Made by a program: the position numbers and the translations under genes
Origin: Cupriavidus respiraculi
GTDB lineage: Bacteria > Pseudomonadota > Gammaproteobacteria > Burkholderiales > Burkholderiaceae
Length of the DNA: 64,000 nt
Direction of reading: 5' to 3'
Assembly: GCF_914271545.1 (NCBI RefSeq)
Contig: NZ_CAJZAH010000003.1
Span: forward strand, 1 to 64,000
Part shown: piece by piece, positions 30,528-32,981 of the stretch
Numbering within the stretch: the stretch's first letter is position 1
Layout of the letters: each line of letters begins with the position of its first letter
Notes under the pieces: generated by a model
Databases searched by the model: none
Told to the model about the DNA's origin: nothing
The model's input: only the letters and a program-made list of their open reading frames with translations

Positions 30528-31801
30528 GCGAGACCATCCGCAACGCCGCCCGCGGCGGCACCAGGGACGCGCAGGACAAGCGCAGCGGCTTCATCGGCGC
30601 GACCATCGGCAACGCCTGGGGCGGGCTGCGCGACGCGGTGTCCGGCGTCAAGCCGACCCGCTCGCGGATGATGGAGTACGACCAGCCGCTGCTGTGGGTG
30701 TCGGTGGTGCTGCTGGCCATCGGCCTGGTGATGGTCTATTCCGCCTCGATCGCGTTGCCCGACTCGCCGCGCTACGCGAACTACCGCGAGACGCATTTCC
30801 TGACGCGCCACGCCTTCTCGGTGCTGATCGGCCTGGGCGTGGGCCTGGTCGCCTTCCAGATCCCGGTCAAGTTCTGGGACCGCTACGCGCCCAAGCTGTT
30901 CGTGATCGCGCTGATCCTGCTGATCATCGTGCTCGTCCCGTTCATCGGCAAGGGCGTCAACGGCGCGCGCCGCTGGATTCCGCTGGGCCTGATGAACTTC
31001 CAGCCGTCGGAGCTGATGAAGCTGGCCGTGGTGCTGTACGCGGCCAACTACACCGTACGCAAGCAGGAGTGGATGCAGAGCCTGGGCAAGGGCTTCCTGC
31101 CGATGGGCGTGGCGGTGGCCGTGGTCGGCATGCTGCTGCTGCTCGAGCCCGACATGGGCGCATTCCTCGTGATCGCTGCGGTGGCGATGGGGATTCTTTT
31201 CCTGGGCGGCGTGAACGGCAAGCTGTTCGGCGCGCTGGTGGCCATCGCGGTGGGCACGTTCGCGCTGCTGATCGCGATCTCCCCCTGGCGGCGCGACCGG
31301 ATCTTCGCGTATCTGGACCCGTGGCGCGAGGAATACGCGCTGGGCAAGGCGTACCAGCTCACCCACTCGCTGATCGCCTTCGGCCGCGGCGAATGGACCG
31401 GCGTCGGGCTGGGCGGCAGCATCGAGAAGCTGCACTACCTGCCGGAGGCGCATACCGACTTCATTCTCGCCGTGATCGGCGAGGAACTGGGCTTTATCGG
31501 CGTGCTGGCCGCCATCGTGCTGTTCTACTGGCTGGTGCGGCGCGCGTTCAGCATCGGCCGCACCGCGCTGCAACTGGACCTGACCTTCGCCGGGCTGGTG
31601 GCCAAGGGCATCGGCATCTGGATCGGCTGGCAGGCGTTCATCAACATGGGCGTGAACCTGGGTCTGCTGCCGACCAAGGGGCTGACGCTGCCGCTGGTCA
31701 GCTATGGCGGTTCGGGGATTCTGATGAACTGCGTGGCCTTGGCGATCCTGCTGCGTGTGGATTACGAAAATCGAGTGTTGATGCGTGGAGGGAAGGTATG
31801 A
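30524..31801 (+). CDS. ftsW: Septal peptidoglycan polymerase FtsW
   Basis: A 425-residue SEDS-family glycosyltransferase that polymerises lipid II at the septum with FtsI. A cytoplasmic N-terminal tail of about 45 residues is followed by ten membrane helices. Conserved elements include [31 protein letters not shown] (catalytic loop region), [37 protein letters not shown] and the C-terminal PLVSYGGSG. The protein ends [10 protein letters not shown]. The same ten residues are encoded a second time 113 bases later, in front of murG. Confidence 0.95.
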
Positions 31802-31916
31802 CCGTAGCGCAGCAACACTTGATTTCGGCGCAGGCTAACTTCCTGCGCCAGCAGGAAGTTAAGCGAAGCGGCCGTGGCCACAACCGCGTGTTGATGCGTG
31901 GAGGGAAGGTATGACC
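31775..31916 (+). repeat. 29-bp direct repeat bracketing an extra segment at the ftsW-murG junction
   Basis: The identical 29 bases at 31775-31803 and 31888-31916 begin GTGTTGATGCGTGGAGGGAA and run through GGTATGACC, covering the last codons of ftsW, a ribosome binding site and an ATG. The offset is 113 bp, not a multiple of three. Just before the repeats the two copies differ by synonymous changes (AATCGA versus AACCGC, both Asn-Arg). Between them lies a perfect 11-bp hairpin, TAACTTCCTGC at 31836-31846 and GCAGGAAGTTA at 31851-31861, with a GCCA loop. The segment looks inserted into what was originally a direct ATGA overlap of ftsW and murG. Confidence 0.9.
31798..31914 (+). CDS. 38-codon reading frame between ftsW and murG
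   Basis: This short frame starts with the ATG that overlaps the ftsW stop and ends with a TGA overlapping the murG ATG. It is preceded by the strong ribosome binding site GGAGGGAAGG inside the first repeat copy. The product would begin [20 protein letters not shown] and end with [10 protein letters not shown], a copy of the FtsW C-terminus. It is basic, without a membrane segment. It resembles no family known to me. It may be translated merely as a bridge that keeps ftsW-murG coupling intact, or it may be a chance frame. Confidence 0.4.
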
Positions 31917-32981
31917 ACGCAGCGCACGCTGCTCGTGATGGCCGGCGGCACCGGGGGACACGTGTTCCCCGGCCTGGCGGTCGCGCACGCGCTGCGCGCA
32001 CAGGGATGGCGCGTGGTGTGGCTCGGCAACAGGACCGGCATGGAAGCGACCCTGGTACCGAAGCACGATATCCCGATGGAGTTCATCCAGTTCGGCGGGC
32101 TGCGTGGCAAGGGGCTGGTGACCAAGCTGCTGCTGCCGATGAACCTGCTGCGCGCGTTCTGGCAGAGCATCGGCGCGCTGCGCCGCGTGCGGCCGAACGT
32201 GGTGCTGGGCATGGGTGGCTATATCACCTTCCCGGCCGGCATGATGGCCTCGCTGCTGGGCCGCCCGCTGGTGCTGCACGAACAGAACTCCATCGCCGGC
32301 CTGGCCAACAAGGTGCTGGCCAAGGTGGCCGACCGCGTGCTGTGCGCGTTCCCGAAGACGCTGCCCGACAGCGAATGGACCGGCAATCCCGTACGCGAGG
32401 AACTGGCGCACCTGCCGGCGCCGGAGACCCGGTACGACGATCGCGTCGGCCCGCTGCGCGTGCTGGTGGTGGGCGGCAGCCTCGGCGCCGCCGCGCTGAA
32501 CGACGTCGTGCCGAAGGCGCTGGCGCTGCTGCCGACCGACACGCGCCCCGTGGTGAAGCACCAGGCCGGCGTCAAGCAGATCGACACGCTGCGCGCCAAC
32601 TATGCGAGCGCGGGCGTCGAGGCGGAGGCGCTGCCGTTCATCGACGACATGGCCCAGGCCTATGCCGAGGCCGACCTGGTGATCTGCCGGGCGGGCGCCA
32701 TGACCGTATCCGAGGTGGCCGCGGCCGGCGTGGCGGCACTGTTCGTGCCGTTTCCGCACGCGGTGGACGACCACCAGACCACCAACGCGCGCTTCCTGTC
32801 GGGAGTCGGCGCGGCGTTGCTGGTGCAACAGAACGAACTGACCGCGCAGGGGCTGGCCGAGACGCTGGCCGGGCTGTCGCGGCCGCAACTGAAAGAGATG
32901 GCGCGGCTGGCGCGCGGACTGGCCAAGCCGGAAGCGACCCGGCGCGTGGCCGAGATCTGCAGCCAGATCGCACGGGACTGA
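31911..32981 (+). CDS. murG: UDP-GlcNAc transferase MurG (lipid II synthase)
   Basis: A 356-residue peripheral membrane GT-B glycosyltransferase that adds GlcNAc to lipid I. The N-terminal G-loop GGTGGHVFP is at 12-20. The second glycine-rich loop is [18 protein letters not shown] and TGNPVR follow, and the UDP-GlcNAc-binding domain has VVGGSLGA and [10 protein letters not shown]. The length is standard. Its ribosome binding site lies in the second copy of the 29-bp repeat, so its start region was duplicated along with the end of ftsW. Confidence 0.96.

Follow-up and report, generated by a model that had tools for sequence, protein, structure and literature searches.

The 113 bp by which the ftsW-murG junction of Cupriavidus respiraculi is extended probably represent one unit of a dispersed family of palindromic insertions, in which the insertion copied its target and selection keeps the translational coupling of the flanking genes. 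The junction lies within a 64,000-nucleotide stretch of DNA (the window), for which an earlier note had proposed that the junction is doubled, 113 bp apart, around an 11-bp hairpin. Consistent with this proposal, a 35-nt direct repeat (31769-31803 and 31882-31916; 94% identity, with the inner 29 nt identical in both copies) was found at a spacing of 113 bp, the two copies enclosing a perfect 11-bp inverted repeat. The repeat includes the last 33 nt of ftsW (T in Table 1), and the second copy (T') encodes the same ten residues as the ftsW C-terminus, in agreement with the view that both protein ends are kept. Between the repeat copies lie the stretch 31802-31825 and a 55-nt piece, the core of the element. 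The same note saw no similarity between the new segment and the preceding DNA, a statement that has to be qualified, as the 30 nt that precede the core, when inverted, match the end of ftsW with a gapped score of 14, a value reached by 0 of 200 shuffled sequences; the best part of this match is designated the arm. RNA folding of 31770-31920 gave z = -4.39 (none of 200 shuffles was equally stable) and placed the first ribosome-binding site within a predicted stem-loop.

Table 1. Features of the ftsW-murG junction of C. respiraculi (positions in the window).
Feature	Position	Strand	Basis
Target site in ftsW, codons GAA-AAT (Glu-Asn)	31766..31771	+	Asp/Glu-Asn/Lys site as at other matched insertion points
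T, functional ftsW end including the ribosome-binding stretch GGAGGGAAGG	31769..31801	+	sequence, repeat search
Small ORF, 38 codons; its start and stop codons overlap the ftsW stop and the murG ATG, respectively	31798..31914	+	ORF list, overlap scoring
Arm, inversion of the first part of T (end of ftsW)	31808..31825	+	score 14, 0/200 shuffles; exact run 5 nt
Element core, CGGCGNAGGCTNAC - variable hairpin - GTNAAGCGNAGCGGCCGNNGCCA	31826..31880	+	covariance model, core comparisons
Inner hairpin, 11-bp arms 31836-31846 and 31851-31861	31836..31861	+	inverted repeat, folding, covariation
T', second ftsW end, its ribosome-binding stretch now preceding murG	31882..31914	+	repeat search, T/T' comparison
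murG, start codon within the repeat	31911..32981	+	ORF and murG matches

Both reading frames are intact, as the earlier note had stated, but the arrangement goes further than that, as a small ORF bridges them, starting in the ftsW stop and ending in the murG start through an ATGA at each end. This chain of stop/start overlaps was kept in 42 of 42 loci scored among 43 tried (L006, at a contig end, was not scored; L002, with its run of 100 N, was scored from the first unit on; and L089 has a longer MurG start and no element). The chain holds across insert lengths, with the unrelated palindrome of G015, in units that lack a recognisable core (G033) and in the fused arrays of genus g10.

Of 60 genomes of the genus, 15 contain the full segment between ftsW and murG, and the unit also occupies this junction in four other genera of the family (g10, g11, g20 and g25). 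The idea of a one-off insertion therefore has to be abandoned, a unique recent event being ruled out by the same unit in the 15 genomes, and its being read in so many of them makes an assembly artefact improbable. When only the junction is sought, allowing up to three mismatches, 59 of the 60 genomes match, and 44 of the 59 junctions read for the genus tree carry no core. The number of units varies: G009 and G016 contain two, G051 one and, where its contig ends, part of another, G043 an additional diverged one, and G127, from g10, four tandem units fused in frame with a short tail, the maximum of full units. G015 displays an unrelated palindrome with the same kind of repeat at ftsW-murG, while the insert of G033 has such a repeat and no recognisable core. 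A covariance model (R1), built from 31 distinct unit cores, returned 40 positives (E<=0.01) among 398 genomes of the family, with no match in the other 358. By our own count 33 of the 40 are strong (E<1e-11) and spread over five genera; reading covered these 33, and 32 of the copies lie between ftsW and murG, the contig of the remaining one (L006) ending upstream. Six genomes of five other families (L202, L206, L209, L297, L302 and L310) likewise carry copies at ftsW-murG.

On a tree of ftsW plus murG from 59 genomes of the genus the presence of the unit requires 12 changes, compared with a mean of 13.5 after shuffling, a scatter in which gain and loss are inseparable. Close relatives differ in unit presence (for example G003 and G007, or G001 and G044). 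Distances between units track those between murG genes (Mantel r 0.58; 0 of 5,000 permutations). We read the units as old and inherited, with frequent losses through recombination between the direct repeats and some exchange at a local scale. The direct repeats would allow units to be cleanly lost or multiplied, and slippage, although refuted as the origin of the core, is the likely source of extra units.

Across copies the core reads CGGCGNAGGCTNAC - hairpin - GTNAAGCGNAGCGGCCGNAGCCA. RNAalifold returned 17 pairs from the cores, five of them with double changes, and 98.7% of cells in this structure are paired compared with 93.1% in shuffles. In 74 distinct hairpins stem positions 1, 3, 4, 5 and 6 are paired in 97, 91, 82, 99 and 98% of cases, against means of 58, 49, 43, 46 and 52% in a mixed-arm control, whereas positions 2 (93 vs 87%) and 7 (97 vs 84%) are nearly equal to that control; the counts cover seven stem positions, and both pairing controls ignore relatedness. 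These data show that the core stem covaries, except at positions 2 and 7, which remain near the control. The Rfam 15 covariance models gave no match on the core at 8 + 20 loci, which rules out a known RNA family there. At L210 an sX9 match of 43.4 bits (gathering score 44) touches the edge of the copy on the other strand.

A search for further copies, as the earlier note had suggested, identified one strong copy in the C. respiraculi genome itself and R1 positives (E<=0.01) in 86 of 399 genomes of the order, its own included, the remaining 313 being without a match. The best R1 match outside the family has an E value of 4e-14. Several positive genomes contain dispersed copies or tandem arrays, the copy numbers being lower bounds since 10 candidates were scored per genome. 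An exact core pattern, which diverged copies would escape, was found in 10 of 12 chosen genomes at 0-13 copies per genome, and its reversed control in 0 of 12. With a second model (R2) 2 of 274 genomes sampled from the class were positive, both from the same order, and no R2 positive was obtained outside the order among the 274. In this sampling the element family is restricted to the order of C. respiraculi. Nine viral contigs carry the 3' half of the core; in L259 it lies inside the open frame of a DUF6441 protein, and the other eight are L318-L325. Plasmid and phage collections, each searched with one query of ~100 nt, yielded no match.

Outside ftsW-murG the hosts are mostly housekeeping genes, including glmS, gap, alaT, serS, metK, nrdA, smpB and argF. 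NCBIfam models identified alanine transaminase, GlmS, a glyceraldehyde-3-phosphate dehydrogenase-type protein, SerS, MetK, ribonucleotide reductase alpha, transketolase, acetate-CoA ligase, SmpB and ornithine carbamoyltransferase, and Pfam models a VWA protein, a solute-binding protein, the GTP cyclohydrolase FolE2, an amino acid kinase with a PUA domain and a glycosyl transferase family 4 protein that, judged by its place and end, is MraY. At the matched gene ends the gene body runs on into T, which extends approximately to the stop codon and is followed by an inversion of its own first nucleotides, by the core hairpin and by a direct copy, T', which starts at an Asn/Lys codon after an Asp/Glu codon. 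Many dispersed copies have the host gene end on both flanks, with an arm that inverts its start. The recurrence of this pattern at other genes supports the proposal of an insertion that copied its target. A simple tandem duplication, already doubted by the earlier note, is ruled out by the presence of the core at unrelated genes. Part of the segment, the arm, proved to be a copy of the target in inverted form.

The arm was compared with both gene ends at 39 loci which, like the 29 used for the end of T, were chosen for a recognised gene end, several sharing a host gene. The longest exact arm run has a median of 9 nt against T (range 3-19; 5 nt in C. respiraculi, 19 nt in L157) and of 4 nt against T', and is longer for T in 25 loci, equal in 12 and shorter in 2. 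The inverse match of the arm to T reached a shuffle p<=0.01 in 32 of the 39. Two copies, at the genes for transketolase (L222) and acetate-CoA ligase (L200), have an arm that matches T but a decayed T'. The first codon pair of T is EN in 25 of the 39 loci, DN in 5, EK in 4, DK in 4 and HN in 1, the last (L301) being read from a tandem copy. Across the 18 of 29 loci with equal lengths (in the 11 excluded, T' differs in length or the arm is too near) T and T' agree at 173 of 216 positions in the last 12 nt up to the stop and at 63 of 162 in the first 9 nt past it. T ends at the stop codon and at some loci earlier; in L300, L289 and L201, for example, it ends a few codons early and the C-terminus of the gene is slightly altered. 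The segment from target site to stop codon measures 18-90 nt and is locus-specific. The anatomy is not universal. Among 82 copies that are dispersed or partly repeated, 33 showed no direct repeat on their flanks, and by our own reading only 34 of 55 copies have a readable Asp/Glu-Asn/Lys match to the upstream gene, the others having no readable 3' motif, a T' that is too short or no convincing match. As gene matching ran in the orientation of the core only, the sense orientation of the copies is biased. Gene composition largely accounts for the codon phase of the target: 67 of 85 GANAA sites across 16 host genes are in phase anyway, a control that weakens codon-phased targeting as a sign of an RNA step.

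Other copies sit in different settings. The core of L243 is embedded in frame within recG and has no flanking direct repeat, and this locus and L244 are the only 2 of 56 copies outside the family's ftsW-murG set with at least 60 open codons on both sides. In L219, L227, L228, L305 and L309 the element adjoins repeated 5' halves of a tRNA-Ser-like gene. The repeated target in the first three resembles the 5' half of tRNA-Ser, a label given from sequence; L219, which has a tRNA match, comprises four units of 74 bp beside these halves. At L205 and L246 (G440) and L252 (G418) the core is contained within a ~200-bp repeat whose terminal inverted repeats are of the type AGGCCGTTGAAAAAC; this family is MITE-like and devoid of arms derived from the target. 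The ends differ in other repeat-embedded copies of G418 and G545, and no arms were found at the repeat-embedded copies of G418, G440 and G545.

A single insertion event would have introduced the arm, the core and the additional gene end together. In the simplest route a hairpin-ended strand would join the target, self-primed synthesis would run back over the target, giving the arm, and joining would leave two copies of the target. Essential genes would tolerate an insert because they retain an intact end, and inserts at ftsW-murG would survive where the overlap chain is kept; the chain being kept, a small translated ORF would therefore relay ribosomes from ftsW to murG. The better match of the arm to T than to T' (25/39) is not predicted by a simple one-event model, and selection on the RNA stem or repeated palindrome correction may be needed to explain it. 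More tentatively, and with considerable doubt, a mobile hairpin lacking an enzyme of its own might build each insertion from the gene it targets, laying down a forward copy up to the stop codon, a mirror copy, the core and another forward copy, in an event that may run via translated or truncated mRNA, through RNA-level joining and reverse copying, and not by DNA transposition. Such an mRNA route is possible because the repeated segment starts at a GAn-AAn pair and ends at a stop codon. A comparison of protein domains between 20 genomes with strong copies and 20 without linked no transposase, reverse transcriptase or other enzyme to the family: Y1_Tnp occurs in 12 of 20 against 10 of 20 and RVT_1 in 5 of 20 against 5 of 20, in a comparison that is small, phylogenetically uncorrected and based partly on incomplete assemblies, 12 of the 20 'element-free' genomes being so classed by absence among the order-wide R1 positives. 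Among the copies compared, no fresh insertion was caught. The copies of this widespread repeat family carry a readable record of their own insertion and point towards a process of insertion in which the target is copied in both directions. Those at ftsW-murG are natural inserts that persist in an essential division and cell-wall cluster with translational coupling rebuilt, and provide a natural test of how tight the coupling of FtsW and MurG synthesis must be.

Several other explanations bear on the same data. It is conceivable, although on balance doubtful, that the segment is a conserved regulatory RNA, selected and not selfish, whose hairpin and T:arm stem, in the 3' region, modulate the upstream gene by way of its translation or decay and, at ftsW-murG, the FtsW:MurG ratio. 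The conserved core nucleotides, the strong covariation of the stem, an arm that stays complementary to T while T' drifts and the first ribosome-binding site in a predicted stem-loop are all in keeping with such a role. It sits poorly, however, with the absence of the core from 44 of 59 genomes of the genus, in which close relatives differ, with the 358 of 398 family and 313 of 399 order genomes that show no match, and with elements located behind unrelated genes, beside tRNA-Ser-like halves and inside recG. An as yet unrecognised transposon relative moved by a known class of enzyme, either a Y1 transposase of the REP/RAYT type or a group II-like reverse transcriptase, seems unlikely. Neither Y1_Tnp (12/20 vs 10/20) nor RVT_1 (5/20 vs 5/20) supports an association in the comparison described, with its incomplete assemblies and lack of phylogenetic correction, although the foot of the hairpin carries GNAG motifs reminiscent of REP elements and the snap-back geometry fits hairpin-ended DNA or cDNA.

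A small functional protein between ftsW and murG, ancestral in the family and repeatedly lost, would account for the open frame at this junction and for a peptide, VKRSGRSxN, that is recognisable across genera. Variable columns in the small ORF are, however, distributed as 13, 12 and 14 over the three codon positions (15 units), a crude test given that the stem also constrains this sequence. Frame and overlap are kept and, with codon positions varying about equally, the peptide apparently is not; a functional peptide was rejected on these grounds, and the cell probably does not need the peptide as such. The three small peptides tried matched no Pfam or NCBIfam family, arguing against a known protein family; outside ftsW-murG only 36 of 56 copies leave this frame open through the core, and the different palindrome of G015 gives an unrelated ORF at the same place. 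The small protein is thus highly improbable. Replication slippage producing a tandem duplication, or an assembly error, would be expected to leave direct repeats and, in the former case, tandem changes in copy number such as those observed; with the core recurring at unrelated genes and read in many genomes, we consider this origin exceedingly improbable.

For a dispersed family of target-copying palindromic insertions the nearest kind, compared by description, is the Rickettsia palindromic elements, described as short palindromic inserts that keep the frame in many unrelated genes (PMC10969869). The present family resembles them in that a palindromic sequence of ~100-150 bp is found in many unrelated genes. 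In-frame inserts within coding genes were read in recG (L243) and a phage DUF6441 gene (L259), with 60 or more open codons on both sides in only 2 of 56 copies. The family differs from the Rickettsia elements in bacterial group, in its location mostly at gene 3' ends and in the repeated gene end and target-derived inverted arm; we know of no such features in the Rickettsia elements. REP elements are imperfect hairpins that lie shortly after stop codons and have GNAG-like tetranucleotides at the foot, and the element described here shares these properties. In contrast to REP/RAYT systems, however, it does not occur in more than 100 copies per genome (0-13 exact-pattern matches in 12 genomes, a count that misses diverged copies), its inner stem sequence is free to vary and it has no Y1 transposase association. 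The main text of a study of tagged palindromic repeats (PMC3733652) mentions none of six names tried from this group of bacteria, among them Burkholderia, Ralstonia, Cupriavidus and betaproteobacteria. Like MITEs, the element is short, non-autonomous and dispersed, and some core copies in G440 and G418 lie in the ~200-bp repeat with terminal inverted repeats (L205, L252), whereas copies at gene ends have neither fixed terminal inverted repeats nor a short fixed target duplication. Integron attC sites contain a box with the consensus GTTRRRY and a partner box. By eye, GTTAAGC fits the former and the hairpin covaries, while GGCTAAC misfits the latter, and the arrays read carry host gene-end copies, not foreign cassettes. 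In open-access literature on the junction, on REP elements in the group and on palindromic elements, no title or abstract dealt with the element family, and the core and peptide strings tried gave no match in open-access full texts; as far as this literature goes, we found no name for the family.

Four further observations concern the ftsW-murG junction. Immediately ahead of the first unit, the end of ftsW is broken by a stretch of 100 N in both L055 (C. cauae record) and L002 (G009); it is probably an assembly gap at repeats and may hide more units. L089 (Robbsia andropogonis record) has no element and instead displays ~50 extra codons at the start of MurG, the overlap with ftsW being kept. 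L061 contains a short insert with an 11-codon ORF between ftsW and murG, which has no core and keeps both overlaps. Finally, L125 (G015) and L032 (C. laharis record) carry another palindrome, of the ATTCCCGCCTGCGCGGGAATGACG type, in frame between junction copies at a 128-bp spacing, a palindrome that presumably resembles the Neisseria dRS3 element.
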